64,000 nt of DNA from Planctomycetaceae bacterium (GCA_020426325.1 JAGQQG010000011.1:1-64000), one strand, 5' to 3'. Shown: positions 10,821 to 37,030, numbered from the stretch's first letter. The notes: generated by a model not told the origin, from the letters alone. Translations and numbers: made by a program.

Positions 10821-10835
10821 ATAGGATTCGCCTAA

Positions 10836-18795: not shown

Positions 18796-21700
18796 TTAGT
18801 CTGTGGGTGTGAGTTCAAACGTCGGTAGGTTATCATCCAGTAGTGGCGGTTCATCGATGAGCGGCATTTCGCTGGTCGGCACTTCGTTGCCGTATTCTTC
18901 TTCATAGGATTCCGGTGGAACTGCAAACAGAGGGCCGTGAATCTCCTCGGCTTCGTGTTCGAAGAAGTGCAGGCGTTCGACTTCGACCTGTTTGATGAGT
19001 TCAAAATCAGCGTCGTTGTAGACGATGCGTGGGGTGAGGAAGACGAGCAATTCCGAGCGACGATGATCGTTGGCGTCGTATCGGAAGGCCTGACCGATGA
19101 TCGGTACGTCGCCGAGCCAAGGGACCTTTCGTTCGAGAGTGGAATCCTGCTCGATAATCATCCCGCCAAGAACGACTGTCTGGCCGTCGTTCACCTTGAC
19201 GGTGGTACTTGCGAGTGTGACGTCGATGATGGGTGCTTCAATGACGGCTCCCGTGTTGGCATCGACGTAGATGGGGACACCGCTTCCCGAGAGGCCGCTC
19301 TTCTGTGCCTCGACCACCATCACCACTTGTCCTTCAGGACTGATCCGGGGCGTGACTGAAAGAATAATTCCCACGTTGGTTTGTTGGACTGTCGGGGATG
19401 TGACCAGGCCGGTCGTGGTGACGCCATTGACTGTGGGGACGGTCTGCCCCTCTTGAATCAAAGCCGCCTGATTGTCGAGGGCCATCACCTGTGGACGACT
19501 GAGGATGCGCACATCACGGCGTGCTTCGAGAGCACGGACGAGCACACTGACGGCATCGCTGCTCGCAGAAAGAACGAGTCCACCAAATCCCAGATCGGCG
19601 TTAGTACGACCAAGGGCGAAGTTGCTCAATCCCTGTGTTCCCACCTTCCCGGGGTTGCCCGCGATGTTGTTGCCGAGTGGCTGGTTGTTGAATTGAAAGC
19701 CAGGCGTCGCTGCCTGCGAAATGATGTTCTGTGTCGTGGTTTGGATCCCGGTGCCTGGGTCGGAGATTGTCGTGACGGTCGTCAACAGATTCTCAGCGGC
19801 AGTGACGCTCCGATCGAACAAGACGGAGTCTTGAAAGCCCAGTTCGATGCCGAATTCGTCAGTGTCAGTCAGTTCAACTTCGACGAGCATGGCCTGGATC
19901 ATGACTTGAGGTGGTTCGGCATCGAGTTGCTCTGCCAGCCGCAGGATCTCATCAAAGTAACGCGGGGAGGCACTGATGATCAGGCTGTTGGTCACGGCTT
20001 CCGGGACGACGATGTATGTCTGGTCGACGAGTTCGCTCGTGCTGACAAGGTTGGCGTCGATTTGCACAAGATCCAGTTGAGCTTGAATGAAGTCATTGAT
20101 GGCCTGAGCGACATCGGCTGCCGGACTGTTCCGCAGTTTGAAGACGACCTGTTTGCGTTGCCGCAGATCGCTTTGATCAAGACGCAACAGAATCGCTTCA
20201 ACGACCCGCAGGGCTTCGGCTCCACCAATCGCGACAACCGTGTTTGTACGGGTGTCAGTGGAGAATTTGAGCGGGATGAGGCTGCTGCTGGCGTCTTCAG
20301 CACCCGCGATCGCGATGTCCAGTGCGCCCTGTTCCTCACTTTCAAACAGTTCATTTAACAGGGTCACAGCTGTCGTGGCGTCAGCGTTTTCAAGCTGGAA
20401 CACCTTGATTTCTGCTACTGTCGCACTGGGCTGGTCGAGGATGTGAATGAGTTCTTCCATCAACACCAGCGTCTGCTTGGGGGCGACGACCGTGAGACTG
20501 TTCGTGCGAAGGTCAGCCGTCACGCGAACCTCTGACAACAGTCCCGAGCGGATGAGCTGTTGAGCAACGCCATCGGTCGTGAGGAATTCCAGGACGACCG
20601 ACCTGGTGTCACGGAGTTCCTGCGGCCCTTGACTGGCAGCACCACCGAACCCGCCGCCCGCCGCTGTCTGGGTAGGTGGATTGATCACTCCCTGGATGGT
20701 TGTATTGAGGAATTCTGAGAGTTCGTCGGCGACTGCATGCTGGAGCGGGATGACTCGCATCTGATTGGCCGATGCCGTTGTTCCCCGATCAATTTTACGG
20801 ATGATCAGTCGCACTTCTTCGAGATCACGTGGTCGAGCGTGCACAATGACCGTATTGGTGCGGACATCGACGGACACACGGACACGAGGTCCTAACCCCC
20901 CCCTCTCCGCGTAGAATTCGTCGAGAGTTGTCTTCACTTGGGTGGCGACTGCATGCCGCAAGGTGAAGATTTCAACTTCGTCTTGTGGGTCCCCGGGGAT
21001 GTCGAGTTCCTGGGCGAGACTGAGGATGGACTCCATCACACCTTGGGGAGCAAGGATCATGACGGCATTAGGTGAACCGACAGCAACGACCTTCACCGTT
21101 TGAGCTCCCTGCAGCGCGTTCACGTTCCGCAGGTCAGCCAGTTCCTCGTAGAGGCTGGTTAACAGCTCTGCGAGTGCGAATGAGTTCACATGCTGGAGGA
21201 AAAGCAGATGAATATCGGGACGACTGCCGACCGCCAGCCTCTCGATGGCGTTAATAACCTCCATCACTTGATCAATATCCTGCTCGTTGCCCCGGAGGAT
21301 CAGCAAGTTGAGATCGTCGAGTGCTTCCAGCGTCACGTCGCCGCGCAATCCGTTGAGGATAGCGGGAAGTTGGTCCTGCAGCGATGACGATCGGCCCGGT
21401 GCTACGCCGGATTCGGGAGGCTGCTCGGCCGCTGGTGGCTGTGGTGCGTTGCGGTCGTCCTGAAAGGCAACCTGGTCAGCACTTACGCTCGACGAACGTC
21501 GCAGTTCCTGCAGTCGTTGTTGACGGAAGCGAGCGAGTTCAGGTTCCAGTTGGCGTCCGATGTGAAGCGTTTCGGGTGTTCCCTGTACGATCTGGGTTGC
21601 ACGCTTGCTGTTGTCGAGCGGCCGATCGCATCGCTGGATGAGATTGAGGACGCCCCGAACCGTTTCGTCAGAGGCGGTGAATTGCAGCAGGTTGTTTTCC

Positions 21701-22593
21701 GTGTCAATTTCGACCATGAACCATGGCAAGGAATCCCTTGTTCCAATCGTCTGTTCCATGACCTGCAGCGCCGGGAGATCACGTGGACCATACTCAATCA
21801 ACTTGGTCCGTGGCTCGAAGGAACGGTACAGCAGTCGGAAAAGATCGACCGCTGACCTGTGCTGTGGCCGATACGTCGGCTCAACAGGGACTTGAGAATG
21901 CTGGGGGCCGACGTTCTCCAATTCCGAGGTGAACTCGCTTGTGATCACAGACTGATCACCAGAAGTGCCATTTGTCTGCAGAAGCTGGGAGTCCTGTTTG
22001 AGTTGCTGTGTGATCGAGTCAAACCGCCGCCTGGTTCGCATGGCATCGGTCTGCTGGCGGGCGGTTGGATGAGTAGGAGGCTCTGCTGGTCCTTCCTCCG
22101 CGTGGGCAACTTGAGTGACCTTGCGTGAATGAGACGCTGGGATCGGCGAGACGGGGCGACGATAGGTGCTTCTCGCTTGCTCCATCTTGAGGATTGTCAG
22201 GAAGCTCCCCTTCTCCAGGAGGCGATAGCCCTCAGGCTCGAGCTGTTGATTGAGAATGCGGACGGCCTCTGTTCTCGAATGTTTCTTCCAGTCGTGTCGC
22301 GAGAATCGCCCGGGCGGCAGATCATGGACTACGAGGGTCGAGTTCGTGTCCTTGGCAAGGTCGTTCAACACCTTCTGCCAAGGCGCACTGATATGATTCA
22401 ATCGGACTGACTGTTCTTCATCACGGGCGATGTTGGTGGGCCGTCCAGCGAACACTTCTGAGGCGGTTTCGGTGTCACCAATGATGGATGTTCGCTCGTC
22501 CCCTCGCACCAATGGGCGGACCGCATAGACACTCAGCAGGCACAGGGCGAGTGCTCCAACAAGAATCGTTATGTGCGGACCGCGGATGGTCAT
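18796..22593 (-). CDS. gspD: Type II secretion secretin GspD (with barrel domain)
   Basis: A 1265-residue outer-membrane secretin. After a signal anchor comes an N0-like module (APWQKVLNDLAKD...HDLPPGRF, about 55-125), a polar linker and at least six N1-type modules, each ending in a xxTNTVIVxAxxxxLE-like strand. The C-terminal secretin domain starts near PPQVMIQAMLVEVELTD (about residue 880) and includes the hallmark VPWLGDVPIIGQAFR and LLVFLTPRIV. This is longer than typical GspD (650-750). ATG 22593 overlaps the stop of a small ORF as TGATG; a TTG three bases upstream is also possible. It forms the exit channel of the system encoded upstream. Confidence 0.9.
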   Translation of the reverse strand: MTIRGPHITILVGALALCLLSVYAVRPLVRGDERTSIIGDTETASEVFAGRPTNIARDEEQSVRLNHISAPWQKVLNDLAKDTNSTLVVHDLPPGRFSRHDWKKHSRTEAVRILNQQLEPEGYRLLEKGSFLTILKMEQARSTYRRPVSPIPASHSRKVTQVAHAEEGPAEPPTHPTARQQTDAMRTRRRFDSITQQLKQDSQLLQTNGTSGDQSVITSEFTSELENVGPQHSQVPVEPTYRPQHRSAVDLFRLLYRSFEPRTKLIEYGPRDLPALQVMEQTIGTRDSLPWFMVEIDTENNLLQFTASDETVRGVLNLIQRCDRPLDNSKRATQIVQGTPETLHIGRQLEPELARFRQQRLQELRRSSSVSADQVAFQDDRNAPQPPAAEQPPESGVAPGRSSSLQDQLPAILNGLRGDVTLEALDDLNLLILRGNEQDIDQVMEVINAIERLAVGSRPDIHLLFLQHVNSFALAELLTSLYEELADLRNVNALQGAQTVKVVAVGSPNAVMILAPQGVMESILSLAQELDIPGDPQDEVEIFTLRHAVATQVKTTLDEFYAERGGLGPRVRVSVDVRTNTVIVHARPRDLEEVRLIIRKIDRGTTASANQMRVIPLQHAVADELSEFLNTTIQGVINPPTQTAAGGGFGGAASQGPQELRDTRSVVLEFLTTDGVAQQLIRSGLLSEVRVTADLRTNSLTVVAPKQTLVLMEELIHILDQPSATVAEIKVFQLENADATTAVTLLNELFESEEQGALDIAIAGAEDASSSLIPLKFSTDTRTNTVVAIGGAEALRVVEAILLRLDQSDLRQRKQVVFKLRNSPAADVAQAINDFIQAQLDLVQIDANLVSTSELVDQTYIVVPEAVTNSLIISASPRYFDEILRLAEQLDAEPPQVMIQAMLVEVELTDTDEFGIELGFQDSVLFDRSVTAAENLLTTVTTISDPGTGIQTTTQNIISQAATPGFQFNNQPLGNNIAGNPGKVGTQGLSNFALGRTNADLGFGGLVLSASSDAVSVLVRALEARRDVRILSRPQVMALDNQAALIQEGQTVPTVNGVTTTGLVTSPTVQQTNVGIILSVTPRISPEGQVVMVVEAQKSGLSGSGVPIYVDANTGAVIEAPIIDVTLASTTVKVNDGQTVVLGGMIIEQDSTLERKVPWLGDVPIIGQAFRYDANDHRRSELLVFLTPRIVYNDADFELIKQVEVERLHFFEHEAEEIHGPLFAVPPESYEEEYGNEVPTSEMPLIDEPPLLDDNLPTFELTPTD

Positions 22594-22835
22594 CAATTGT
22601 TAGCCGGAGGCGTCTGCCGCAGGGAGACTTCGGACGGATCAGCGAAGTTGGAGTTACTCAAGGATCGTCCGGGATGCTGGAGGTCGTCTTGGGGCACGGT
22701 TTCCACACGGACTGAGAGCGAGCCGGTAAAATCGCGCTGATCCGTACAGTCTCTGTTATCGGCACAGTTTGACATGCGGAATGAGGCGAAAACCTGTCTC
22801 GCTCCAAGACGGCCCTTGCCGCAACAAGCTGTCAA
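22593..22835 (-). CDS. Possible small coupled ORF before the secretin
   Basis: An 80-codon frame between gspM and gspD on the operon strand. Its TGA overlaps the secretin ATG (TGATG), an arrangement that fits translational coupling. The product is polar, Asn/Asp/Ser-rich, has no signal peptide or transmembrane helix, and matches nothing I recognise. The start codon is unsure; a start at the internal Met (MSNCADNRD) would give about 60 residues. It may be a real small component or a chance frame in a 290-base spacer. Confidence 0.3.
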   Translation of the reverse strand: MTACCGKGRLGARQVFASFRMSNCADNRDCTDQRDFTGSLSVRVETVPQDDLQHPGRSLSNSNFADPSEVSLRQTPPANN

Positions 22836-22882
22836 GAAATGGATTGCGGCAAGTGCATATGCCGCTGCTCACCAATTCGACG

Positions 22883-24589
22883 TCATTCTGCGGTGGGAGA
22901 AGCTGGAGCAATGGCCTCACCGACCGGCAGAAGTTGCCGCAGACTGTTACCAAGCGGCATCCGGAAGGTGCGGGATCCGATCGTCAGTTCGATATGGTTA
23001 CTGCTGATTTCCGAGATTTCCGCCTCGATGTCTGAGACCACAATCTGTTCACCGGGACGGGCGATCGTGCGTTCGTTGGTGGCACGGTTGTACAGAAAAG
23101 CCTCTGGCTGACCGTCCTCGCTGAAGTAGCCGACGAAATAGGTGTGCAACGCAGCATCTTCGTTGACGGTGATCGTCAACGAATGGTCCGTCGACTGCAG
23201 CGGTTCGCCACCGTCGGTCGCTGTAATCGTGATCGGGTAGTCCCCTAGCTCAAGTGAGAGCGGCGGGGTCCAGGAAACATCACCGGTGTGGGCATCAATT
23301 GTTACACCCTCGGGCAATTCACCTGTCAATGAATAAGTCAGTTCTTCAGGTGAACCATCGGGGTCACTCGCTGGGACCCTCATTGTGAGAGGACGCCCGG
23401 AATAGGCCTGTACGCGATCAATGTCCTCGAAGACTGGTGACAGGTTGGGGTCGCGAAGGATCAGGGTGAGAGTCGTGGAAACAACTTGTTGTGGATTGAT
23501 GCGGGACTGTGCACGCACATGAACATCGTACTCCTGTGAAATCGTTTCGTTGCCGGGAGTCCAACTCAGACGTCCAGTCACGGGATCGATTTCCATTTCA
23601 GCGGGGACGTTCTCAATGAGTTCAAAAACTGGGTTACCCCCCGATGGGTCCCAACCGGTGATGGTGAGGGTTGTTTCCCACGGGGTACCTCGCATCACGA
23701 CTGGGTCGCTGATGGGGGCAAACTCAGGTTTGTAGTCGATCAACGGAGCAGGCTTAGTAAACGGGCTGTGTTCGAGCAGTGCCGCGTAGTCATCGAACGT
23801 ATGCGTCTGATGATCACGGTCGACAGGAAAAAGTTCGACCGCTGTTCCCGCCGGATGAGCGACCGCGACCGTTTTCTCGGCTCCTCGCTCGATCGTCCAC
23901 CGATTGCCATCGATCTTCTGGACCATGACCAGTTCCTGCCCGAGCTTGACTTGAAATCCGGTGACATGCGGGAAGCGCTCGGGAGGCTCGACCTCGATCG
24001 TCGTCGCTTCTGCTGAGAGATCAGACGTTATCGAGGTACGTGGAAACAGGTAACGTCGTTCCTCTGCGTCCGGTAACGAGAGGCCGATCGCTGTCAGCGT
24101 CACTTCAAGCTGCGGATTGCCATCGCTCTGAGGGCTACTGACTTCTAACGAATCGATTCGATGCACGAGTGCGACTCGCTCACAGTGGTAAAGAAAGCGG
24201 GCCAGTTGTTCGAGCGTAGCCTTGGCTTCAATTGTGACGGGGATCTGCACGTACGTTGTCCCGCGCGGCGTGCGACGTCCCAGAGTCGGAGTCGCACTCT
24301 CGAATCCGGACATCGCCGCGAGATTCATCAGCCATTCCTGGTACTCTCGCTGTGCGGTCAGTTGATTGGGGGGGAGGCTTTCGTATTGCCAGTCCCTCAG
24401 TCGCGCCCGGGCAGTCTGGAGTTCGAGTTGTTGTTCTTCCCGTTGCGTGAGTTGGCTCCTGGCGACCTCCAGCAGTCCGCGCCGCTGTGTGACCGGTTGC
24501 AGGAACCAACCCTCAAACGCAGGCAGCACCAACCAGACGGCGACTGCGCCGCCGAGGATGAGTGCCAGTTTCTTCTCTCGTGCCTGCAT
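22883..24589 (-). CDS. gspM: GspM/PilO-like protein with Ig-like (putative Ig/cadherin) domains
   Basis: A 568-residue inner-membrane protein. An N-terminal transmembrane helix (LALILGGAVAVWLVLPAF) is followed by a coiled region (about 35-85) and a PilO/GspM-like ferredoxin fold (about 90-175, with VTIEAKATLEQLARFLYHCE). Unlike ordinary GspM (about 160-200 residues), it continues with two putative Ig modules of the He_PIG type, at about 300-390 and 395-475. Each shows a YSLTGELPEGVTID-like core and a DVSWTPP or RLSWTPG turn. A C-terminal segment (about 480-560) resembles the compact beta domain of GspC/PilP-type linkers, but this is uncertain. It begins 18 bases after gspL. Confidence 0.75.
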   Translation of the reverse strand: MQAREKKLALILGGAVAVWLVLPAFEGWFLQPVTQRRGLLEVARSQLTQREEQQLELQTARARLRDWQYESLPPNQLTAQREYQEWLMNLAAMSGFESATPTLGRRTPRGTTYVQIPVTIEAKATLEQLARFLYHCERVALVHRIDSLEVSSPQSDGNPQLEVTLTAIGLSLPDAEERRYLFPRTSITSDLSAEATTIEVEPPERFPHVTGFQVKLGQELVMVQKIDGNRWTIERGAEKTVAVAHPAGTAVELFPVDRDHQTHTFDDYAALLEHSPFTKPAPLIDYKPEFAPISDPVVMRGTPWETTLTITGWDPSGGNPVFELIENVPAEMEIDPVTGRLSWTPGNETISQEYDVHVRAQSRINPQQVVSTTLTLILRDPNLSPVFEDIDRVQAYSGRPLTMRVPASDPDGSPEELTYSLTGELPEGVTIDAHTGDVSWTPPLSLELGDYPITITATDGGEPLQSTDHSLTITVNEDAALHTYFVGYFSEDGQPEAFLYNRATNERTIARPGEQIVVSDIEAEISEISSNHIELTIGSRTFRMPLGNSLRQLLPVGEAIAPASPTAE

Positions 24590-24607
24590 GGTTCTGTTAC
24601 GACGGAT

Positions 24608-26104
24608 TCAGTTGAGGGTGACTCGCTGCCCAGAGTCGACCTGGTCGGTTTTGCTGACAGGGACTTCAATCTGAAGTTCAAACGCATAGGGGTAGTCCGG
24701 GTCGACTCGGCTGCGGTCAGCAACCGACGGCAGAACCCGGAAGCCGGCGTCTTCCAGGACTTCTTGAAGCTGTTCGACATCCTGTTGCGAAACGGCATAC
24801 CCGACGGCCGTCACTCGCAGTGCGGCGTCGCGAGTGAGCGTTTCCGACTTCAATTCGCGGAGGTACAGTCGATCGGTTCCCGGTGCCAGTCGGTTGAATT
24901 CCTCAATCACCGCGAGGGGGTCATGATTCCGTTCGACCCACTCGCCGATCAACGCGGCAGCGTTCTGATCGGGAAGTCCCTGCCGAAGTTCGGCGTCCAG
25001 ATCCTCGACTTGTTGTTCGATCTGTAAGGTCTGTGCTTCGAGATCAGTCAGATACGAGGAAAACATCCAATAACCAACACCGGTGACCAGCAAGCAGGCC
25101 GCAGCAGCCAGGCCTGCACGGATCCTGGTACGGTCCGGGGGAATGACGGCTCGGCGAGGATCGAGAAAGTCGACGCGGCTGACGTGTGGCCCCGTCTGTC
25201 CCAACAACGCCCCCAACGCGGGAGTGAACGCTGCGAGTTCTGTCACATTAATCTGCGGATCAACGATGAGACCGCGTGCCTGAGAGACATCCAACACCTG
25301 CAATTGTTGGCCAAAGCGAGTCTGCAGAGCCTCTTCCACGGCCGGGTCGGCATTGCCCGGATGAATGAGGCAGACCCGTGCGATTTCGATGTTCGATAAC
25401 GACTGTGACAATGCGACGATCGTCCGGTTGATCTCGGCGAGGGACGATTTCCGCCCTCCGCTGCTCTCCATCTCTGCCAATCGCGTGTGATGGCTGAAGA
25501 ACACCTGTTGCTGAATCAGTGCTGTGATCTCGACACGATGTGCATCTTGAAAGATGACCAGTGTTACCTGATTTGGATCGACCGAGTGATCAGGGCCGAT
25601 GCGAGTCACAACCTCGCCAACGCTGACAGGACTGATGCCGACGGTCAGCAGGTCGATGTTCGCAGCGGCAAGGGTTTCGTGGAGGTGACGCAACCGTGTC
25701 CCATCGATGGTCACCATCAGCACCTGACGCGTCGCATCGTCCGACTGCATGGGCAGCGGCAGATAGTCGAGAGTTAACCGGTCAAGTGGGGTTGATGATT
25801 TGGTCGCGGCCTGGAAACGAACGAGGTCCGGCAACTCGTCGTCCGGAGCGTTCGGGAGTTCGAGTTTCCGAACAACGATCGCCTCACGAGGCATCACGAC
25901 ATGGACGTCGCTGGCTGCGATTCCGTGTGCACGCATGGACTCGGCCAACCACCGCCCCAGCGCCTCAGATCGCTGACGGAGGTCAGCATCGTCCGGCCAG
26001 TCGATGCGAAAGCACTTGTTGACGCGCAAGCTATCCCCACTCACATCGGCAACAATGCCAGCGAGGTAATCGGCTTCCCAGTCAAAGGCGAGGGTGTGAG
26101 ACAT
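24608..26104 (-). CDS. gspL: GspL-like PilM-PilN fusion protein
   Basis: A 498-residue protein. Residues 1-310 form a PilM-like actin-fold cytoplasmic domain: it starts AFDWEADYLAG and has AMPREAIVVRKLELPN-like and AFTPALGALLGQ blocks. A single transmembrane helix (AGLAAAACLLVTGVGYWMF, about 330-350) leads to a coiled coil and a PilN/GspL-type periplasmic domain. This architecture matches GspL, which links the ATPase to the periplasmic GspM. The start is set at the ATG at 26104, directly before the conserved domain; the upstream extension is coded by repeat sequence. Confidence 0.82.
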   Translation of the reverse strand: MSHTLAFDWEADYLAGIVADVSGDSLRVNKCFRIDWPDDADLRQRSEALGRWLAESMRAHGIAASDVHVVMPREAIVVRKLELPNAPDDELPDLVRFQAATKSSTPLDRLTLDYLPLPMQSDDATRQVLMVTIDGTRLRHLHETLAAANIDLLTVGISPVSVGEVVTRIGPDHSVDPNQVTLVIFQDAHRVEITALIQQQVFFSHHTRLAEMESSGGRKSSLAEINRTIVALSQSLSNIEIARVCLIHPGNADPAVEEALQTRFGQQLQVLDVSQARGLIVDPQINVTELAAFTPALGALLGQTGPHVSRVDFLDPRRAVIPPDRTRIRAGLAAAACLLVTGVGYWMFSSYLTDLEAQTLQIEQQVEDLDAELRQGLPDQNAAALIGEWVERNHDPLAVIEEFNRLAPGTDRLYLRELKSETLTRDAALRVTAVGYAVSQQDVEQLQEVLEDAGFRVLPSVADRSRVDPDYPYAFELQIEVPVSKTDQVDSGQRVTLN

Positions 26105-26116
26105 GGCTGAAGTAGC

Positions 26117-26207
26117 AGGGTGGCAAAGTGAGAAGTGGCAAAGTGGGTAGTGAATTGGCACCGTGACCCTTTGTCACTCTGCCACTAACTACTTTGCCAC
26201 TCTCCCT
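26117..26207. repeat. Inverted pair of heptanucleotide arrays between gspK and gspL
   Basis: The spacer between gspK and gspL is almost wholly made of 7-base-periodic sequence. The left half repeats GTGGCAA/AGTGAGA/AGTGGCA/AAGTGGG and the right half carries the complementary series (ACTCTGC, CACTAAC, TACTTTG, CCACTCT). The two halves can pair into a long imperfect hairpin. Confidence 0.8.
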
Positions 26208-26213
26208 TGGATT

Positions 26214-27884
26214 CTACTCGACGGATGATGGGGACAGTTGGTCAATTCGATATCCCGGTCCGAGGTGTGTAAGATCCCGCTGAAAGACGACGCGTGGAGG
26301 CGTGATCGTGCTATCGATAATCGCTTCAACCCTCGCGACCGGACCGCCACGGTCGAAGTGACCGACCGCGTTAACTCGGTAGACACCTCCGCGGACGGTC
26401 AGATACCGGTCGAGCAACCGCATGGTTGTCAGGTCGGTCAGCCCATCGATGAGCAGCCAACCGGTCGTGTTGCGATACGAGAGCACGTCCGACGTCGGCT
26501 GTCCTTCGACAAACTGCGGAGCCGCCGCGACGATCGCCTCCGCCAGATCCGGAGGCATGTCCGGCAGCCCCAGCAGACATTCTAACCGCGCCTGATTGAC
26601 ATTGATCCGCCCCTCAATGAACTCCGCATCTCGGATCGTGAAATTCTCGAAGATGAACGGCAGGCTCTCCGCTAGTTCACCCGAGGCACTACCCCACGGA
26701 CTGACAAGTGTTTCGGTCGACGATGTCGCTCCCTTGATAATGTCGACCTCAATCTCTGCACCGATGAGGTCGTAAAGTGATATAAAATCGTAACTTGGCC
26801 CAACAGTGATGTCCATGCCTCCCCGTGTCACAGCGGAGCCGGTTCCGCCTCCAAGTGACTTGGCCAAACTCTGTGCGGCGTTCTGTAAGGCCTCATCGGT
26901 TTCGATGTCGCCTGTCGTGTTGTCGCTGCCTTCGGGGTACAGCGGCGGCAGGTTGGTCGAACCATTGAGGCGATAGGCGGTAATGAAATGCGGGATGCCG
27001 GAGTCCTCGCCGAACTCCTCCGCCAACTCGTCGTAGAGGACGGTCAATAGTGGTTGATTGATGTTGATCTTCGGCGTCCCGTCCGGGCGCAGGTTCGACT
27101 CACGACTGTGCACCGTCAGGAACGCGGCCCAGCCGGGGTTGAGCACGCCATCTGCATTGTCGAGCGGCGGGGTCGCTTCGCCGTCGTTCTCGTTCGGGTC
27201 GAGGAGTCCATTGCGATTGGCATCCTCCCCATACAACAACTCAGGAGTCACTCCGGCAATCAACAGCAATTCATCAACCGACTCCAGCGGACCGTTCTTC
27301 GCCTCATAAGGCGGAGTGAACGTGAGATACACGTCCGTCTCGGCTCCGTATTCCCGCGTGTCGTCATCCGTGTCGACCCAGTCGAGAATCGCATCCGCGA
27401 CATCCTCGGTCATGTCGGGGAGATACATCAACATCTCGCGAGTCAGATCGTCATCCAAGCCGAAGCCGATCAATGCATTCGGATTGAGCCGGGCCGATTC
27501 ATCGATCAGTCCGAAACGAATTTGTGTGCCGGTCGAGTCGGACTCAACTGGCGCCACGAGCGAAACTCGTCCCCGGCCGCGTTCCACAGCATGATCCTGC
27601 AAGAGTGCGGCTCGAAAGATCTCAGGGTTGTGATACAGATCGACGGGGTCCTGTTCCGGCGCCTGAAAGGGCCACGCAGCAGCCAGTTCGACTCCCGAAT
27701 CGGCGAAGGCTTGCGTGAGGGCACCACGACCGTAACGCTCCGTCGCTTCTGTCTCCGCAAGCATCAACTCGGTAAACGTGTAAGCCGCGAGCGACAACAG
27801 CACAATCACTACCAGCACCACCACAAGCGCCGTTCCCCCTCGTGGGTGATCCATGTCGATATTGTGTCGTCCCGGCAGATTCAC
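26214..27884 (-). CDS. gspK: Type II secretion minor pseudopilin GspK
   Basis: A 556-residue GspK-type minor pseudopilin. The N-terminus has the atypical class III signal of this family, with RGGTALVVVLVVIVLLSLAA as transmembrane helix. The large helical insert domain includes the helix-hairpin-helix-like blocks LLLIAGVTPELLYG and INVNQARLECLLGLPDMPPDLAEAIV, where the second marks the C-terminal domain. It is longer than the usual 300-350 residues. The ATG overlaps the gspJ stop as ATGA, indicating coupled translation. GspK, with I and J, caps the pseudopilus tip. Confidence 0.85.
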   Translation of the reverse strand: MNLPGRHNIDMDHPRGGTALVVVLVVIVLLSLAAYTFTELMLAETEATERYGRGALTQAFADSGVELAAAWPFQAPEQDPVDLYHNPEIFRAALLQDHAVERGRGRVSLVAPVESDSTGTQIRFGLIDESARLNPNALIGFGLDDDLTREMLMYLPDMTEDVADAILDWVDTDDDTREYGAETDVYLTFTPPYEAKNGPLESVDELLLIAGVTPELLYGEDANRNGLLDPNENDGEATPPLDNADGVLNPGWAAFLTVHSRESNLRPDGTPKININQPLLTVLYDELAEEFGEDSGIPHFITAYRLNGSTNLPPLYPEGSDNTTGDIETDEALQNAAQSLAKSLGGGTGSAVTRGGMDITVGPSYDFISLYDLIGAEIEVDIIKGATSSTETLVSPWGSASGELAESLPFIFENFTIRDAEFIEGRINVNQARLECLLGLPDMPPDLAEAIVAAAPQFVEGQPTSDVLSYRNTTGWLLIDGLTDLTTMRLLDRYLTVRGGVYRVNAVGHFDRGGPVARVEAIIDSTITPPRVVFQRDLTHLGPGYRIDQLSPSSVE

Positions 27885-28882
27885 TGGACGAGTTCCCCCG
27901 CGAATGGTTGTGCGTTCGGCAGGGTGACCACATGGCGATACGTCTTCGGCAGGACATCATTGACGCGGGACGTTGTACGGATGTGATCGCTGAACGACTT
28001 TGCTCCAACGCCGTCGATGTCTTGTTCGGCCGTGACAATGCCCAACGTGATTGCGATTGCTGAAGGAGGTTGACCCTCCACGATGGTGTCCCAAGAGTCC
28101 GTCCACTCCAGTCCGTTCCAGTAGGCGAAGTTTAAGGAGACGACTTCAGGGGCGAGGATCCGGGCATGAGTGGACAGCGTCTCCAGATCACCCGTCTCAC
28201 TCGCATGTTGCACCAGGAGACGATCCCCTTCCAGTCGCGTGAGGCCCGTGACGGTGCCCGCACGCGGAGCGTCCAGCAGAGACCCGTCATACGCTGCTTG
28301 AGCCACTTGACCGGCCAGCCCTGATGCTCCACGTACCGCGAGGAAGTAGTTGACGGCAGCCAGATCACTGTGTGATGTGGGCGAATCGGTCGTTTGGCCG
28401 ACAATCCGCGAGGGACGGCTGATATGCAGCACAAGCGACTGGCTGTCACCGAACACGCCGCTACTCTCATTCGCGAACGCCTCGTCCGGGGATGCCTTTT
28501 CGATCACAACCTCGACATCTTCTTCGGCAGCCGCTTCATCGGTCTGTGTCGCGTCCTCTTGGATGACGAACACAACTGAACGAATGTCAGACTCGATCGT
28601 CCGGAACAGGGCTCGCACGAGTTGGGCCTGCTCCATTTGCTCTCGCCCAGCAGTCGAGAGTTGATACGACACGTTGATGGACGCATAGACAGCGCTCAGC
28701 AGCACCACCGTCAGGGCGAGGGCGACGAGGACCTCGATGAGTGTGAAGCCGCGTCGGGTTGTGGGTTGAGGGTGAATGGTTGAAGGTCGAGAGTCGAAGG
28801 TCGAGCGGTGATTGTCATGGGAACGATCGGGACATCGACCATCCACTCCCCACTGCCTACTGGCCACTGCCCATTTCCTCAC
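27881..28882 (-). CDS. gspJ: Type II secretion minor pseudopilin GspJ
   Basis: A 333-residue pseudopilin. The prepilin cleavage motif RRG-FTLIEVLVALALTVVLL is clear, but it is preceded by about 44 residues instead of the usual 5-25. That leader is coded almost entirely by heptanucleotide repeats (28757-28805 and 28843-28884). The start is GTG and overlaps the gspI stop as GTGA. The mature part has a beta-rich head with the DLETLSTHARILAPEVVSLN and WNGLEWTDSWDT blocks typical of GspJ. GspD, E, F, G, H, I, K, L and M are all in the same operon. Confidence 0.87.
   Translation of the reverse strand: MRKWAVASRQWGVDGRCPDRSHDNHRSTFDSRPSTIHPQPTTRRGFTLIEVLVALALTVVLLSAVYASINVSYQLSTAGREQMEQAQLVRALFRTIESDIRSVVFVIQEDATQTDEAAAEEDVEVVIEKASPDEAFANESSGVFGDSQSLVLHISRPSRIVGQTTDSPTSHSDLAAVNYFLAVRGASGLAGQVAQAAYDGSLLDAPRAGTVTGLTRLEGDRLLVQHASETGDLETLSTHARILAPEVVSLNFAYWNGLEWTDSWDTIVEGQPPSAIAITLGIVTAEQDIDGVGAKSFSDHIRTTSRVNDVLPKTYRHVVTLPNAQPFAGELVQ
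28757..28805. repeat. Heptanucleotide array inside gspJ leader (GGTTGAG type)
   Basis: Seven consecutive 7-mers: GGTTGTG, GGTTGAG, GGTGAAT, GGTTGAA, GGTCGAG, AGTCGAA, GGTCGAG. They are coding on the minus strand and give the PSTIHPQPTT part of the GspJ leader. The unit is the same as at the gspH start. Confidence 0.85.
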
Positions 28883-28884
28883 GG
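28843..28884. repeat. Heptanucleotide array at the gspI/gspJ junction (CCACTGC type)
   Basis: Six 7-mers: CCACTCC, CCACTGC, CTACTGG, CCACTGC, CCATTTC, CTCACGG. The array contains the GTG start of gspJ and the stop of gspI. The unit is close to the arrays between gspK and gspL. Confidence 0.8.
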
Positions 28885-29334
28885 CGACACCTCCGTGGCA
28901 GCGGCATCAATGAACAGCTGTGGGTTACGAACAAGGCGTGTGAGTGTGAAACCAGCATTCTCAGTGCGGCTGAGCTGCTGGTGGGTGACGCTCACGTCGA
29001 GTTGCAGGAGATCCGGGTGCGGACCATCGATGATCGACAAGCTCCACAGCCAGCGCCCATCGTCAACAAACGGCTGTTCCTGGACGGCGACCATTGGCTC
29101 GACTCCGGCGATCACTTCGGCGAGCTTGGCCTCACACCGTAAGATCGCTTCACTTCGCAGCTGCCCTTCGGTCGCGGCGAGTGTTCCCACGTTGATCACT
29201 TGTCCGATGGCGGCAATCGCACCGAGAAAGATGCCCAAGGCCAGCAACACCTCGAACAGCGTGATCCCTCGACGGGCAGATCGTCGAGTGAGAAAGGGAC
29301 AGATTCTCCGCTGATTGAGTCGGCTGCGTGTCAT
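28879..29334 (-). CDS. gspI: Type II secretion minor pseudopilin GspI
   Basis: A 151-residue pseudopilin. The leader MTRSRLNQRRICPFLTRRSARRG ends in the prepilin peptidase site RG-ITLFEVLLALGIFLG, with the Glu at position +5 and a hydrophobic helix. The short beta-rich head (with MVAVQEQPFVDDGRWLWSLS) fits GspI by size. Its ATG overlaps the gspH stop as ATGA, and its stop overlaps the gspJ GTG as GTGA, so H-I-J-K are tightly coupled. Confidence 0.85.
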   Translation of the reverse strand: MTRSRLNQRRICPFLTRRSARRGITLFEVLLALGIFLGAIAAIGQVINVGTLAATEGQLRSEAILRCEAKLAEVIAGVEPMVAVQEQPFVDDGRWLWSLSIIDGPHPDLLQLDVSVTHQQLSRTENAGFTLTRLVRNPQLFIDAAATEVSP

Positions 29335-29957
29335 CGCTGGCTGGCCTCACGTTGGAGCGGACCTGTCGAGACACTGCCCGTCAGGCCACGCAGCGAGACA
29401 TCAATCGAGCGACCACTCTCGTCCTTGATGCGAAACGTCGCGTCGCTGGATGTTCCATCTGCAAAGAACAGCAGCGGCGGAGCCCAGGCAGTGGTTTCCA
29501 ACTCGTGGGCATCGATCAGGTTGGCAAACGCTTCGCGCGGCAAGCTCTCGACGACTGTTGCAGTGAACAGTCGCTCATCGGTTGACGTGAATTGACACGA
29601 CTCGTCGATCCTGCCGCTCAGGACGGGATAGATCTGCAATTGAGGAGAAGTCGAGTCGACACTTGTGGTAGCGTCGATGTTCTCCGGCGGATCAAACGGG
29701 ATAACAGTGAATCGCTGGCCACCGGGTTCATAGCGGAACTGGTACGTCAGCCCCGTATCGATTGCCTTGATGCGTGTCCCTAACACAGCCGTCTGTGCTG
29801 CTAATGCCGAGTCTCGAATGGCGGCCTCGCCCATATATCTCGTAACCGATGGCCATGTGATACCGACAATGACGGCCATCGCACTCAGGACCAGAAGCAC
29901 CTCCAGCAGCGTGAAGCCGTGTCGGTTGAGGGTTGAGGGTTGAGGGTTGAGGGTCAT
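29331..29957 (-). CDS. gspH: Type II secretion minor pseudopilin GspH
   Basis: A 208-residue pseudopilin with the prepilin motif RHG-FTLLEVLLVLSAMAVIVG. I place the start at the ATG at 29957, giving a 13-residue leader (MTLNPQPSTLNRHG). Most of this leader is coded by four perfect GGTTGAG heptamers read on the other strand. A longer in-frame extension to 30050 would overlap gspG and is not favoured. The head region ends RSIDVSLRGLTGSV, the C-terminal beta hairpin expected of GspH. It lies 44 bases after gspG. Confidence 0.82.
   Translation of the reverse strand: MTLNPQPSTLNRHGFTLLEVLLVLSAMAVIVGITWPSVTRYMGEAAIRDSALAAQTAVLGTRIKAIDTGLTYQFRYEPGGQRFTVIPFDPPENIDATTSVDSTSPQLQIYPVLSGRIDESCQFTSTDERLFTATVVESLPREAFANLIDAHELETTAWAPPLLFFADGTSSDATFRIKDESGRSIDVSLRGLTGSVSTGPLQREASQR
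29924..29951. repeat. Four perfect GGTTGAG heptamers at the gspH start
   Basis: An exact tandem array of four GGTTGAG units (CTCAACC on the coding strand), starting four bases inside the gspH ATG. It codes LNPQPSTLN. The repeat also occurs in diverged form in the gspJ leader and in the DUF1553 gene at 10218. Confidence 0.95.
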
Positions 29958-30000
29958 AACGGGACTCTCACAGATACAAACGCCGCTCGCGGTTTCGCTG

Positions 30001-30474
30001 TTACACAGAGGCCGGAGTCGTCCAGTTGTTGATGTCATCTCCCGATCCATCGTCGTTTTTAAGGTCTCGTCCGGATGACCAGATGGCCGGTTTGTCGCGA
30101 TCTGACTTGCTGTTGGGGTACTCGTAGTGCAACGGCGTCCCCCACGCGTCGAGTGGCATCTCGTCGAGGACTGGTTCGATCGGGCGACCGGTCTGGGGAT
30201 CGTTCCCGGGATTGATCAGTTTCTCGAAAACTTCATCTCCCCCCTGAGGATACTCTCCCTGATTGCTGACAGAGAATAACTTGACGGCCTGTTCCAGTCC
30301 GTGAATGCTGGCCTGCGTTGCCTTGATGTTGGCGGTCTGTTGCTGGCCGAGGAACCGGGGCACGACCATCGCGGCGATGACGCCCAGAATGGCCAGCACG
30401 ATGAGCACTTCCAGCAGTGTGAAGCCGCTGCGGCTTGCACGAATTGACTGTCGATGGCGGGGATTACGATACAT
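30001..30474 (-). CDS. gspG: Type II secretion major pseudopilin GspG
   Basis: A 157-residue major pseudopilin. The leader MYRNPRHRQSIRASRSG is followed by FTLLEVLIVLAILGVIAAMV. The mature protein keeps the GspG hallmarks: DAWGTPLHYEYP, and the calcium-binding C-terminal loop SSGRDLKNDDGSGDDINNW. I chose the ATG at 30474, which has TAAGGAT upstream; a longer frame reaches 30576. It is the main subunit of the pseudopilus and lies just downstream of gspF. Confidence 0.92.
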   Translation of the reverse strand: MYRNPRHRQSIRASRSGFTLLEVLIVLAILGVIAAMVVPRFLGQQQTANIKATQASIHGLEQAVKLFSVSNQGEYPQGGDEVFEKLINPGNDPQTGRPIEPVLDEMPLDAWGTPLHYEYPNSKSDRDKPAIWSSGRDLKNDDGSGDDINNWTTPASV

Positions 30475-30594
30475 GAAACTATCCTTAGATGTTCTCATCT
30501 GGTGTTTGAACTCTGAGATGCGAGATTTCGGTTGCGGGTGAGCGACAGTGGCTCGGCAGGAGCCTCGCCCTCCCATGATGTCGTTGATCTGATT

Positions 30595-31803
30595 CTAGAC
30601 AACTCCTGAGCTTTGCAGGATGGGAACGAGTAACGCAACGACCACAAACAACACGATTGCGGCCATAACGAGTAGCAGCAAAGGCTCCAACATGCGGACG
30701 GCGATGTCGAGTTCCCGGTTGGTACGACGTTCGAGATTGTCCGCGATGTCGATTAACACGTTCTCAAGATTGTTCGCTTCTTCTCCGACGGAGATCATCT
30801 CGACGATCTCCGTGGGGAATTGTTGACTTTGAGAGAGAGGCTTCGCCAGCGACTTCCCCTCCGAGATGTTCTCGGCAGCCTGCTCGATCGCTGTCGTGAG
30901 CACGACATTGCCGGTCGCGTCCTTGGCGATGCGCAGCGACTGCAGGATGGGCACGCCGTTCCTCAGCAAAGTGCCCAGGATGCGGCAAAAACGTGCGATG
31001 GCGAGACTCTTCACGATTCGACCGAACCCGGAAACACGCAGGCGTGCCGAGTCGAGATGCCATCGCCCCTGTTCTGTCCGGGATGCTTGACGCAGTGCGA
31101 CGGCCGCTGCGATAACGAGTCCAACCGCGACCCACCAGTATTGCTGGGCCGAATCGCTGAAGTTTAACAGGGCCGTTGTCGCCCAGGGCAGATCGCCTCG
31201 CTGAGCCATGCGATTGAAGATCGGTTCAAACTTCGGCACGAAGTACACGAGCAGCACGCCGACGATGATCGTGCCGAACACCAGCAGAAACACCGGATAG
31301 ACGAGTGCTCCGACGACCCGCCCTTTGAGTTCCTCCTGATGATCCGTGAACGCGGCGATCCGTTTGAGGACTTCTTCCAGGAATCCCCCCTCTTCACCCG
31401 CGCGAATCATGCTGACAACCAGCTCATTGAACGCAGCCGGATGCGCTTTCATCGCCTCGAACAACGGCGTGCCGTCCGCAACTCGACCGCGGACATCCTC
31501 CAGGACCAGACCGAGCGCAGGACTCGTTGACTGCTGCTGGAGCAATTCGAGCGATCGCAAGAGCGGGACTCCGGACTTCAGCAGATCGGCAAGCTGTCCG
31601 TAGAAGATCGACAGAACTCGTGGCTTGACCTTTCGCCCGACGTAGCGCTGCTGAGACTTCGCGTCTTCTGCCAGATCCACACTGACCGGAAACAACTGCC
31701 GCATGGCCAACGAAGCGAGCGCATCCTGCTCGGTCGTCGCAGTGAGGACGCCTGTCACTTGCTGACCAGAGAGTTCACGGGCTGTGTATTGGAAGTCAGG
31801 CAT
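30595..31803 (-). CDS. gspF: Type II secretion inner-membrane platform protein GspF
   Basis: A 402-residue platform protein with the two GspF domains (about 70-195 and 270-395). Hallmarks include FYGQLADLLKSGVPLLRSLELL, VSMIRAGEEGGFLEEVLKRIA, FCRILGTLLRNGVPILQSLRIA and MISVGEEANNLENVLIDIAD. Three hydrophobic segments are visible near 170, 215 and 375. It interacts with GspE and GspL. It is separated from gspE by an 83-base spacer built of heptanucleotide repeats. Confidence 0.95.
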   Translation of the reverse strand: MPDFQYTARELSGQQVTGVLTATTEQDALASLAMRQLFPVSVDLAEDAKSQQRYVGRKVKPRVLSIFYGQLADLLKSGVPLLRSLELLQQQSTSPALGLVLEDVRGRVADGTPLFEAMKAHPAAFNELVVSMIRAGEEGGFLEEVLKRIAAFTDHQEELKGRVVGALVYPVFLLVFGTIIVGVLLVYFVPKFEPIFNRMAQRGDLPWATTALLNFSDSAQQYWWVAVGLVIAAAVALRQASRTEQGRWHLDSARLRVSGFGRIVKSLAIARFCRILGTLLRNGVPILQSLRIAKDATGNVVLTTAIEQAAENISEGKSLAKPLSQSQQFPTEIVEMISVGEEANNLENVLIDIADNLERRTNRELDIAVRMLEPLLLLVMAAIVLFVVVALLVPILQSSGVV

Positions 31804-31886
31804 CGTTCAGGGAACAGCGTTGAGGGAACAGCGAACAGGAAATAGCGAACAAAACACGCTTTCACTGTTCGTTATTCCCTATTCGT
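31804..31886. repeat. Inverted heptanucleotide arrays between gspE and gspF
   Basis: The whole spacer is 7-base periodic: CGTTCAG, GGAACAG, CGTTGAG, GGAACAG, CGAACAG, GAAATAG, CGAACAA, then after a short centre GTTCGTT, ATTCCCT, ATTCGTT. The right part is complementary in type to the left, so the spacer can fold into a hairpin within the operon mRNA. Confidence 0.85.
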
Positions 31887-33569
31887 TCAAGTCACGTCTC
31901 CTCGGGTAATGCGCACAACCTCGTCGAGACTGGTGATTCCAATTTTGGCCTTCTCCCAAGCGGATTGTCGCAGCGTCAACATGCCTTGCTTGAGGGCGTG
32001 ATCGCGGATGTCGCCGGCGCTGGCGCGGTTGACGCAGAGTTTGCGAACCTGCGGGTCGTTGAGCAGGAGTTCAAAGACACCGGTCCGGTTTGTGTAGCCG
32101 ACGTCACGGCAGACGCGGCAGCCAACGGGACGCCAAAGCCGATCCACTGAATCCCTCCCGAGGTCGGGCGGTAGTTTGTCCCTGTCGGGTTGATATTCTT
32201 CGCGGCACTTGGGGCACAGTTCGCGAATGAGTCGCTGAGCCAACACACCTTCGACCGTACTGGCGACGAGGTACGGTTCGACACCCATGTCGATCAACCG
32301 GGTGAAGGCGCTGGGGGCGTCGTTCGTGTGCAGGGTGCTGAAAACAAGGTGCCCTGTGAGCGACGCCTGAATGGCACTCGTTGCCGTTTCACCATCGCGG
32401 ATTTCGCCGATGAGCACGACGTCCGGATCGTGTCGCAGGATCGACCGCAGACCGGCTGCGAATGTGAGGCCAATCTTGGTGTGCACCTGAATCTGACTGA
32501 TCCCGTCCATGTGGTATTCAACCGGATCTTCGACAGTGACTATCTTTGTCTCGGGCGATTTGATCTCGTTGAGGGCTGAATACAGGGTCGTTGTTTTCCC
32601 TGAACCGGTTGGTCCGGTGACGAGCACGATGCCATGCGGGAGTGAGATGAGTTCCTGAAATGGCTCTGCGACCTCCAACGGCATGCCGACGCTGGCGAGG
32701 TTGAAGACCATGCGGCCTTTATCGAGCAAACGCAGGACGATGCCTTCGCCGTGAATCATGGGGATGATCGATACTCGCACATCGACGTCTCGACCGGAGA
32801 CACGGAGCTTGATGCGTCCGTCCTGGGGCAATCGCTTCTCTGCGATATTCAACCGCGACATGATCTTGAGCCGAGTCACGATGGCCGATGCAAAGTGGTT
32901 GATCTCCGGCGGGACCGGCTGAGGACGAAGCATGCCGTCGATGCGGTTACGGATGGTGAGTCCATGCTCACCGGGCTCAACATGCACGTCGCTGGCACGT
33001 TGTTCGAGTGCTTCGATGAGCAACTCGTTGACGAGACGGATCACGGAGGCCGCTTGGGCTTCTTCGGCCAGTTCACCTAGTTCGCTCGGCAAGTCTTCAA
33101 GGAGTTCAACTCCTTCCTCCGACCGCTGGGCGACGAGTTCGTTAATCGTATCGCCACCGACGCCCAGGCTACCCTTGATGAGATCGACGATCTCCTGTCG
33201 GCAGGCCAGGACCGGATCGACGCGGCAGCCTCCCAGGGAACTCAGTTCATCGAGAGCTTCAAGATCGAAAGGATCACTGGTGGCCATCCGCACACGGCCG
33301 TCCATCGCTTCGAGCGGCAGCACCTCATGACGGAAGATGGCCGTCGTGGGGAATCGAGAGATGAGCGGCATGTCGACCTGAAAGTTCTTGAGATCGACGA
33401 AAGGGATCCCCAGTTCTTCACCCAGCGCACGGAGGGCGTCTTCCTCCCTGATCGCTCCCATCTCGACGAGGATCTGGTCGACACGTTTGCCGTTCGCCTT
33501 TGAGCGCGCGGACTCCATCTGCTGCTGATCAATCAAGCCACGCCGCAGTAAGAGTCCGCCAATCTCCAT
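31887..33569 (-). CDS. gspE: Type II secretion ATPase GspE
   Basis: A 560-residue assembly ATPase. The N1E/N2E domains occupy about 1-150 ([15 protein letters not shown]). The motor domain has Walker [16 protein letters not shown] near 315, the Asp box, Walker [14 protein letters not shown] near 385, and the His box [16 protein letters not shown] four-cysteine zinc motif, CPKC...CRVC, lies near 455-490 as in GspE. Its ATG comes two bases after the stop of the upstream GspD-like gene. It powers pseudopilus extension through GspL and GspF. Confidence 0.96.
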
Positions 33570-33571
33570 CG

Positions 33572-36500
33572 TTACCGGTCTCCTCGATCTCGTCCGAAGC
33601 GTCGCCGTCCGGAACCCGAATTGTCACCTCCCTGTCGAATACTTTCGAGTCCACCTCGACCATCGCTCCCGTTGCCTCTCCCCTCACGAAGTTGTCGGAA
33701 GAACTCGATACGACGTTGGATATCATCGGCTTGTGGCGTCTCGGTGTTTGGCGACTGACGTGTTTGATCTCCAGACGTCGTTGAGGATGTCCTCGCAGCA
33801 CTTGCGGTCGACGAGACGGTTACGCGCGGGATCAGTGAACTCAGTGTGTTCTGCACGGCCGATGCGTTCGTATTCTCCAGCGAGACTACGCGGACTGTCC
33901 GTCGGGCTTCGCGGGCAGCATTGTCGACCGACTGCACGAGTTGTTCGATTTCGTGAAAAATGGATTCACTTGATGACACGATCAGGTTGCTTGTTTGACG
34001 GTCGATTCCGATCGTGACCTTGGGTTCGCTGAGTGGTGCAGATTCATCTCCACCGCGACTCCCTCTGTCGCCGCGACCGCCGCCGAGCAGTGCTGCGAAT
34101 GCACCTCCAGGGACACCCGCACCACGCGGAGCCTGCAATTCGGGTTCATAGACACTCTTGACGATCTCGTAGACTTCGTTGATCTCAGCATACTTGACGG
34201 GGATCATCCGGGGGACACGATCACGGAGGGACTCGGTGAGCCCCGAGGCATCGAGGACTTCCAGCATGTCCCGGACCTCATCGACCCGATAGGTGGGACC
34301 GCTGACAAACAGCGCGTTCAGCCGAACGTCCGGGATGATGCGAAGTGTTTGTGGACCGGTGCCGAGGCTGTTGAGACCTGTCATCTGGCCGACGCTGCTG
34401 CCGAACGAACTGACACCGCTCGTGAGCATGCCGAGGACGCCGGAGGAACTCGATGATGTCTGACTGACGCTACTGTCAGGGAAGAGTTGCTCCAGCATGG
34501 CCGATGCTTCGGTCGCATCGGCCGACTGGAGGGGGATGACGGTCCAGGTGGTGCGCGGCGGGATCGCCTGCAGGACGTCTTCGAGCATCTGCTCCATCTC
34601 GTCGAGAGCCTCCTGGTCCTGCGAGATCAACACCAGATCGCTGCCCGTGACCCGAATGGTGACCGGTGATGCCCCTGCTGGTTCTAACGTGTCGACCGAT
34701 GACGTGTCCTCCGCATCATCAACACTCACCATAAAGGGGTCCGCGGTTCTCACATCACGAGACGTCTGCTGATCTTCCTCAGCGGGCGCATTGGACGCGG
34801 CAGGTGGCGGCTCAGGCGTGTGACGAGGTTCGTCTTCGAGAACTCGTGGTCCTCCCTGGAAGGTTCCGGGAGGGTTGACGACCCGGATCGAACTCCCTTT
34901 GCGTGTCTTCCAAAGCTGTTCGAGGATGGGGAGCACTTCGGCCGGATCACGGCTGCTGAGGTTGAAGGTCCGGATGGGACCACGGTTGGATCGTGCGCTC
35001 CCCGTGCCGTCTTCGCCCAGGTCAGTGAGGACTTGCCGCACCTGCAGGATCTGACTTTCCGTACCTCGAATCATGACCTGTCGTCCAATCATGTCGGCCT
35101 GGATCGTGGGCGCATTGTCTCCATCACGAATGAACAAACCTTGTAGCGTGAGCACCGCGAGCGACGGGTCCATGTTGGAGAGTGGGATTACGGAAACCTG
35201 CGTGCCGCCGCCGGCTCCATCCAGCTTGCGAATGAGTTCGCGAACCTCTTCGTGCTGAACGGGGGTTGCCATGATATTGATCAGCCCGTTACGACCGTCC
35301 TCATTGACAACGATCCCCGGCATCAATGCATCAATAGACTTCGTCACCTCACGCGCATCCGAGTTGGAGACGGCATAGGTGAAGAGGTAGGGCTTCTTGC
35401 TCATGAAGCTGCCGCTCGCCTCGACATCGATTGTTTTAACAGCTTCTTCGATAATCTGATGTTCCGATGGTGAGGCTGTCGCCAGCAGCCGATTGGTTCG
35501 CGGGTCTGCAATGATGCGTGCATTCGACATGTTCGCCGAGCCGATGGCATCACGGCTCGATTCGCGATCACGAGAGCGGAAATCGAAACGGCCGCGATCA
35601 GAGGTCGAACTGACATTGGTGACGCCGGTAGCCACGCCAAGCATATGTTTGATGAGCAATTCGGCTTCTTCGGCAGAGATGTTGGTCAGCGTGTAAGGAC
35701 GAAAGATCATGTCTTCCGAACCAGGCGCCACGTTCTGCAGCATGGACTGGATGCGGCGAAGGTTCGAGCCGATGTCCGTTACAATCAATGAGTTCGTGGC
35801 CGTCATGCCGACGACGGTCCCCTGTGGCCCTTTGAGCTTTTCAACTTCACCGGCCACAAGATTGACATCAGCACCTGCAAGCGGGAAGACGACCGTCAGC
35901 AACTCATTACGTCCCCGATTGAGCAACTCACTGGCATCAATTGTGGGAACGAGATTCGGTGGGATGCCCTGATCGATGTTAAGGCTGACCAGGAAGTTGT
36001 CACGCCTGACGAGCACATAGCCCCGAGCCAGGAGGTAGCCATTGAGGACGTCCAACGCTTCGGTAACGGTGTATTGCTTGTCGTCATAGTGATTGAATGT
36101 GCCCGGCGGAACATCATTGAGGTCGAGAGTCAGACCAGCAACGTCAGCGAAGCGTTGCAGCACGATTGACCAAGGGGCGTATCGAAAATTGAATGAGAGA
36201 GTGGGGCCGTTGTCACCGCGAGGCGTTTGATCGCGAGCCGTCGATTGTTGTCCGTCAACGGCGGCAAAGGATGCAACCGCTTCCGCACCTTCCGGGACGT
36301 CCATCTCAAACGCTGCCCGCTTCGCGGGAGCCTGGGGAGGTGCCGTGTTTGTGGTCGCTGCTCCGTCCTGACTTCCCAGCGGCGGGCCGAGGCGCTGTTG
36401 CCATGACTGCTGTTGTTCAGGCGTCAGGACGGCTGCAAACTTCGTATTCCATTCTTCATCGAACTTCGCACGATCCTCTTCGGAGGCACGAAAGCCCAAC

Positions 36501-37030
36501 TCGCGGCGGGCGTTATCCCGTTCTTCGACGAGGGTTTTGATTTGTGATTTCTGATCATCGGTGAGTCCCAGACTCTCCGCGACCTCGTCCTGACCAAGCG
36601 CACGCAGACCCTGTTGCTGGAGTGACACCTGTTGCAGCCGCGTTGTCTGCTGCTCATTGAGGATCGACTTGAGCTGTTCGTCCGACTCACGACGTCGTTG
36701 CTCGAAAGCGGATCGCATTTCTTCCCGGAGAGCTTCCCGCTCCTCGTCTGTCGTTGCATCCCGCATTCTTTGAAAGAGGTCTCCATTGTCACCAAAGTTA
36801 CGTGCCTGCTCACCCAACTCCTCGATTTGCTGAATCTGCTCCTCTGTGAGGTTCAATTCCGAGCGGACATCATCGCTGCGGAGCGTCCCCAACAAACCAC
36901 GGTCGCCGCCACGACCACCACCCCTGCCGCCTCGTCCTGGTTGGGCCTGCGTGACGTCCGCGCACAGGATCGCAACGAAACAGGCGATCAGCAAGGTGAC
37001 CACTGATTGAAATGGTTGTCTCATGCGCAT
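33572..37030 (-). CDS. GspD-like N-domain repeat protein lacking a secretin barrel, with LTxxQ N-terminus
   Basis: A 1152-residue exported protein and first gene of the secretion operon. After a signal peptide and a Gly/Arg-rich tract, residues about 45-215 contain three LTxxQ-type helical segments ([41 protein letters not shown]), as in Spy/CpxP-like or metal-sensing periplasmic proteins. An N0-like module ([20 protein letters not shown]...DVPPGTF) at about 275-350 parallels that of the secretin at 18796. About seven N1/N3-type modules follow. The chain ends in a disordered Ser/Gly/Arg-rich tail, and none of the secretin signature is present. It may build or extend the periplasmic ring or gate; that is inference. 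Confidence 0.8.

Follow-up and report, generated by a model that had tools for sequence, protein, structure and literature searches.

The operon at 18796-37030 on the minus strand of a 64,000-nucleotide stretch from a Planctomycetaceae bacterium (GCA_020426325.1 JAGQQG010000011.1:1-64000; hereafter the window) raises the question of why a set of type II secretion system (T2SS) genes should begin with one GspD-like protein and end with another, only the last of which carries a secretin barrel. We call the first product P0001 and the last P0002. Our analysis suggested that the two proteins likely make up a single, very long secretin of the GspD type in a T2SS without GspC, because relatives encode both parts co-linearly in one open reading frame (ORF), the two proteins co-occur even where their genes are unlinked, and the cut between them falls within an N-domain. 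An initial annotation of the window had proposed such an N-domain stack in two parts, extended by the barrel-less protein. The proposal gains support from the fusions and the co-occurrence, from correlated divergence of the two proteins, and from the presence of N0 on the partner only in most lineages.

P0001 contained six PF03958 stretches above threshold (E 1.5e-55). An iterated N-domain profile found eight modules, the eighth reaching profile positions 1-35 only, and a Pfam profile search found no PF00263 secretin barrel in P0001; thus, the protein by itself is not a secretin. It scored 158.9 bits against NCBIfam TIGR02517, below the 351-bit cut-off. The initial annotation's description of a 1152-residue protein of N0 and N modules without a barrel was therefore borne out, and no barrel came to light that would contradict it. 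The Spy-like domain and the terminal half N-domain are additions to that description. Against PF07813 the protein scored 32.4 bits (cut-off 24.3), which places its N-terminal domain in the Spy/LTXXQ family. The gene and its parts are as follows.

33572-37030, minus: P0001, barrel-less N-domain protein, operon gene 1 (ORF of 1152 residues; six PF03958 stretches, no PF00263)
36941-37030, minus: signal peptide, residues 1-30 (...VTQAQ), judged from the sequence by eye
36383-36895, minus: Spy-like LTXXQ domain, residues ~46-216 (PF07813 E 1.6e-7; profile match to PDB 3oeo, Spheroplast protein Y)
35975-36202, minus: N0, residues 277-352 (N0 search; 62% mean identity, the family's best conserved part)
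33920-35890, minus: seven complete N modules, residues 381-1037 (iterated N-domain profile)
33791-33901, minus: orphan N-domain first half, residues 1044-1080 (profile positions 1-35; hhalign template 1-26; 43% conservation)
33575-33790, minus: low-complexity tail rich in S, R and G (composition)

In some lineages a Spy-like (LTXXQ) protein has its own gene beside gspE or the gene for the barrel-less (N-only) protein (L065:9448-10248, L082:6833-7765, L093:16901-17641, L059:19469-19900), and in other lineages the domain is fused to the N-only protein.

P0002 is the full secretin of about 1265 residues that had been noted near the end of the operon. The iterated N-domain profile found seven modules in it, and it scored 341.6 bits against TIGR02517, slightly below the cut-off. 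Translation probably starts at the ATG at 22593, one codon within the listed TTG. The N0 modules of P0001 and P0002 are paralogous (E 4e-12 to 1e-12), as the initial annotation had also read them.

18796-22596, minus: P0002, secretin GspD, the operon's last gene (1266 residues; PF00263 E 2e-45; six PF03958)
22168-22416, minus: N0, residues 61-143 (N0 profile E 1.8e-31; an N0 confined to this clade of GspD)
21619-21876, minus: N module, residues 241-326 (N-domain profile)
21346-21501, minus: P/Q-rich linker preceding the half-domain, residues ~366-417 (composition)
21232-21345, minus: second half of the junction N-domain, residues 418-455 (hhalign template 53-92 of 93, E 4e-7; co-linear with the fusions)
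19918-21201, minus: five complete N modules, residues 466-893 (N-domain profile)
19021-19533, minus: secretin barrel, residues 1022-1192 (PF00263 E 2e-45)

We found eleven ORFs, of 1892-3911 residues, that hold both parts, and ten of these have an N-terminal N0; the eleventh (genome G138) is cut off by a contig end, so that 3911 is a lower bound. Families of the phylum are numbered here, f2 being Isosphaeraceae, which contains Isosphaera pallida. Eight loci in f3 and f60 (L043, L044, L047-L049, L075-L077) and two in f4 (L045, L046) each have a single ORF of 1892-3269 residues with an N-terminal N0, 9-31 modules and a barrel. BLAST matches to the fusions were co-linear: residues 277-1060 of P0001 lay on the N-terminal part and residues ~418-1221 of P0002 followed on the C-terminal part, whereas P0002's own N0 was not present. 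G138 belongs to a different family of the phylum, and its ORF runs to at least 3911 residues with 42 modules and a barrel (L094:2-11737, contig G138:C86). It may rank among the largest secretins.

In a tree built from the C-terminal regions of 44 secretins the fused G138 protein was outermost, followed by the fused f3/f60 group (support 100/99). A single clade held 29 split GspD (100/98) and had the fused f4 pair as its sister group (96/86), and the split f6 protein of G041 fell on a separate, weakly supported branch (91/57). With two incomplete rows left out, the fused or split state required two changes on this tree. These sequences are most simply read as the outcome of one or two splits of a giant ancestor encoded by a single gene, the tree's root resting on one distant outgroup. 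By the co-linear fusions and the tree, N- and C-terminal parts of one ancestral secretin are carried on two genes, that is, the secretin is split. An apparent three-way split in G216 was rejected as an artefact of runs of N, and the GspD of G051 is interrupted by a contig end.

The cut lies inside a domain. At the junction the fusions have a single N-domain, in which 134-246 low-complexity residues part the first strand and helix from the second half; in f3 and f60 this linker is Gly-rich and then Pro/Gln-rich. N-only proteins end in the first half; the chain then either terminates at once or continues as a tail that is short or of low complexity. A profile of the half-domain, trained on 29 of 46 N-only tails, detected 38 of the 46 at 1e-3 or lower, compared with 2 of 1840 shuffled tails, and the weak tails came mostly from side families. 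In profile-profile comparison the GspD of all three split groups aligned to the second half only. The GspD of G041 consists of a signal peptide, a linker and then the second half, with the first half absent, and the half-domain profile detected no first half in GspD of the window's clade. Mean identity was 43% for the orphan half, 34-52% for complete modules and 18-20% for linkers; the orphan half evolves as complete modules do, not as linkers do. Because P0001 ends in a first half and P0002 holds a second half, the two polypeptides may share a composite ring domain at the joint. That the two half-domains complement each other in this way is a tentative suggestion from the alignments, possible though somewhat short of probable.

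Co-occurrence was assessed in 90 genomes of the class that were at least 95% complete, presence being scored with a protein query. This GspD was present in 62 genomes and a P0001 match in 60, all of which were also positive for GspD. Stand-alone GspD occurred in 44 genomes, every one with a separate barrel-less ORF, and 18 genomes (f3, f60) were fused, truncated or ambiguous. The partner was found in none of the 28 genomes without this GspD, 23 of which belong to f2. The pair thus co-occurs, which the initial annotation had proposed to check, and the partner was missing from no genome in which GspD stands alone. In several genomes the two genes are far apart, by 0.3-2.5 Mb (2.5 Mb in G008, 0.6 Mb in G036, 1.9 Mb in G134, and about 0.4 Mb in G169 and G187), indicating that the association is more than operon linkage. 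Linked cases in the window's family have the constant order N-only, E to M, D. Divergence of the partner was correlated with that of GspD (r = 0.84, 22 pairs, 0 of 5000 permutations reaching this value; not phylogeny-corrected).

The distribution of N0 is also informative. N-only proteins carry N0, and within the window's clade the N0 profile was positive in 12 of 12 GspD, against none of 18 other stand-alone GspD outside that clade; for those 18, N0 is supplied by the partner only. In known T2SS, N0 is turned towards the inner membrane (PMC8134430). By these profile matches the N-only protein is, in most lineages, the sole predicted bearer of the inner-membrane-facing domain.

Genes between P0001 and P0002 identify the operon as a T2SS and not a type III system. 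From 37030 down to 18796 the order is P0001, GspE, F, G, H-like, I, J, K, L-like, M-like and P0002.

31887-33569, minus: GspE ATPase (PF00437 E 2.1e-131; MshEN)
30595-31803, minus: GspF (PF00482 E 3.9e-60)
30001-30576, minus: GspG, major pseudopilin (PF08334 E 1.2e-12)
29331-30050, minus: GspH-like minor pseudopilin (N_methyl; XpsH/GspH models under cut-off)
28879-29334, minus: GspI-like minor pseudopilin (weak PF02501 and operon position)
27881-28882, minus: GspJ-like minor pseudopilin (N_methyl; weak PF11612)
26214-27884, minus: GspK (PF21687 E 1.4e-16)
24608-26161, minus: GspL-like (PilM-like) protein (without a Pfam match; weak PilM/Amuc_1101; operon position)
22883-24589, minus: GspM-like protein with C-terminal Ig/cadherin-like (He_PIG) domains (weak PF10741, PF05345 E 5e-18, weak XpsM)

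Homologues of the GspM-like protein are 292-620 residues long. GspC (PF11356), not apparent in the operon on first inspection, was absent from the operon, the host genome and all of 40 genomes searched, while the E. coli and Caulobacter controls were positive. N0, the domain that GspC binds, is highly conserved in the host genome and 39 relatives despite the absence of GspC.

The host genome has seven PF00263 loci, and a second T2SS-like operon with the same gene order lies on contig C329 (G000 contig C329:13000-34900; L020, L021). It encodes an N-only protein of 2183 residues (27 modules) and a GspD of 1323 residues (9 modules, without N0). In G023, N-only proteins of this C329 type reach at least 2832 residues and 40 modules; in G191 they reach 3259 residues. 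The class has further barrel-less families of 880-1050 residues, with N0 and 5-6 modules, remote from this gspD (L120:4741-7848, L121:4022-7186, L122:3998-6748, L123:3703-6447, L124:3314-6001, L125:3588-6539, L126:3928-6933, L127:4076-6730), and some of these genes adjoin pseudopilin-like or GspE-like genes. Elsewhere in the window, the divergent neighbour of the operon (37319-38305) encodes a product with several EF-hands, and 1701-3167 one with three YTV (PF07639) repeats. At 7143-12233 a PSCyt1/PSCyt2/PSD1 protein stands beside a DUF1501 protein, a gene pairing common among planctomycetes; a second DUF1501 gene is at 53936-55345.

Several points weigh against one secretin in two proteins. 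The correlated divergence is owed in part to common descent. The second N0, on GspD of the window's clade, is superfluous for a simple end-to-end stack; unique to this clade, it could stem from a giant secretin that was duplicated and then lost complementary parts. GspD of the C329 type, although part of the split clade, has a first half of its own (E 1e-4 to 4e-6), so that the orphan half there need not be completed by GspD. The position of P0001 as first gene could reflect another role, and an AlphaFold model of P0001 from two sequences was discarded at a predicted local distance difference test (pLDDT) value of 34.

In one alternative, P0001 forms an inner-membrane ring or scaffold in its own right, replaces GspC as connector or recruits substrates, and does not continue the GspD channel coaxially. 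We consider this unlikely. It would suit the absence of GspC alongside an N0, its usual partner, retained on P0001, as well as the Spy-like domain and the N0 on GspD of this clade, whose channel may thus be complete; but the fusions place P0001 on the N-terminal side of the GspD modules and in one line with them, the 18 stand-alone GspD without N0 rely on the partner for it, and the cut falls within a domain. The fusions, being to this type of GspD, also argue against P0001 serving another secretin of the genome, of a type IV pilus or other system, as do the common operon and a presence and absence that track this GspD over the 90 genomes. We gave that idea very little credence, despite the seven PF00263 loci, an N-only gene remote from gspD in several genomes and the additional barrel-less paralogue families.

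Just as improbable, in our judgement, is that P0001 is without a structural role, being an assembly chaperone or what is left, in decay, of a giant secretin that was duplicated. Spy itself acts as a chaperone in the periplasm, and giant-secretin duplication with complementary loss would account for the two N0s and the truncated last domain. Modules and orphan half are nevertheless conserved across families where linkers are not, and the gene is present wherever stand-alone GspD occurs in our sample.

If P0001 and P0002 are instead two parts of one secretin, P0001 would be exported to the periplasm and build the lower, inner-membrane-proximal ring stack (N0 and some seven and a half N modules), at whose membrane end its Spy-like helical domain would lie. 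P0002 would build the upper, outer-membrane-proximal stack and the outer-membrane pore, the two meeting end to end at the cut of one ancestral N-domain, and a GspG-K pseudopilus driven by GspE/F would work within the combined channel. From sequence we infer ring formation, stacking order, contact between P0001 and P0002, and the secretion function of the pair. At an estimated 2.5-3 nm per ring, a coaxial tube of both proteins would measure roughly 40 nm. The stacked rings probably bridge an unusually deep cell envelope. If so, the T2SS channel would be kept continuous over an enlarged periplasm by multiplication of ring domains and not by one connector (GspC), at first within one giant protein and later over two polypeptides divided within a domain.

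Deletion of the separate gene for one part would put the ring-stack idea to the test. Planctopirus limnophila DSM 3776 (G212; over the 20 kb compared, identity with NC_014149.1 was 100%), of the same family as the window genome, has the split pair, with an N-only protein of 1191 residues beside gspE and a GspD of 1469 residues. Gene deletion and cryo-tomography are established in this species (PMC5394234); thus, the test is feasible there, including whether the complexes are crateriform structures. These are outer-membrane complexes, sometimes fibre-bearing, that appear in cryo-tomography as press-stud-like links from the outer to the cytoplasmic membrane, and P. limnophila has been imaged. 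A literature search found no description of their composition. That the two-part giant secretin, its polypeptides joined via one shared split ring domain, is all or part of these structures seems to us quite improbable. Proteins of both types were absent from all 23 Isosphaeraceae (f2) genomes sampled, yet crateriform structures are reported in at least one member of that family (PMC7716859), which argues against a simple identity.

How, then, does this pair compare with known systems? Canonical T2SS GspD (E. coli, Klebsiella PulD) shares N0, Secretin_N rings, the PF00263 barrel and an operon with GspE-M. It is, however, one polypeptide of ~650 residues with N0-N3 and a GspC partner, whereas here about 15 modules lie on two polypeptides, GspC is absent and the secretin gene is last in the operon. 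SpoIIIAG of sporulation likewise has barrel-less ring-building domains and forms a ring between two membranes, but it belongs to a different family and has no paired secretin. In rhizobial type III secretion the N- and C-terminal parts of a split secretin, RhcC1/RhcC2, come from two separated genes (PMC3574062, PMC3973906); the planctomycete pair is likewise encoded by two genes but belongs to a T2SS. The mitochondrial T2SS of protists has Secretin_N domains on separate GspDN1-3 proteins, no GspC, and a yeast two-hybrid signal between GspD and GspDN1 (PMC8134430), but its pieces are single N-domains or halves with a truncated barrel, whereas the planctomycete parts retain N0 and 6-40 modules. 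Split secretins as such are thus already known, while the planctomycete case is apparently unreported: an open-access search turned up no description of a planctomycete T2SS secretin that is split or giant, most subscription papers being outside its scope. The likeness to PilQ of Thermus thermophilus, which has been ranked among the largest secretin systems, lies in the long N-ring stack, which is thought to cross a wide periplasm (PMC5745081). PilQ is one polypeptide of a type IV pilus with six N rings, against module counts of 15 to over 40 in the planctomycete secretins.

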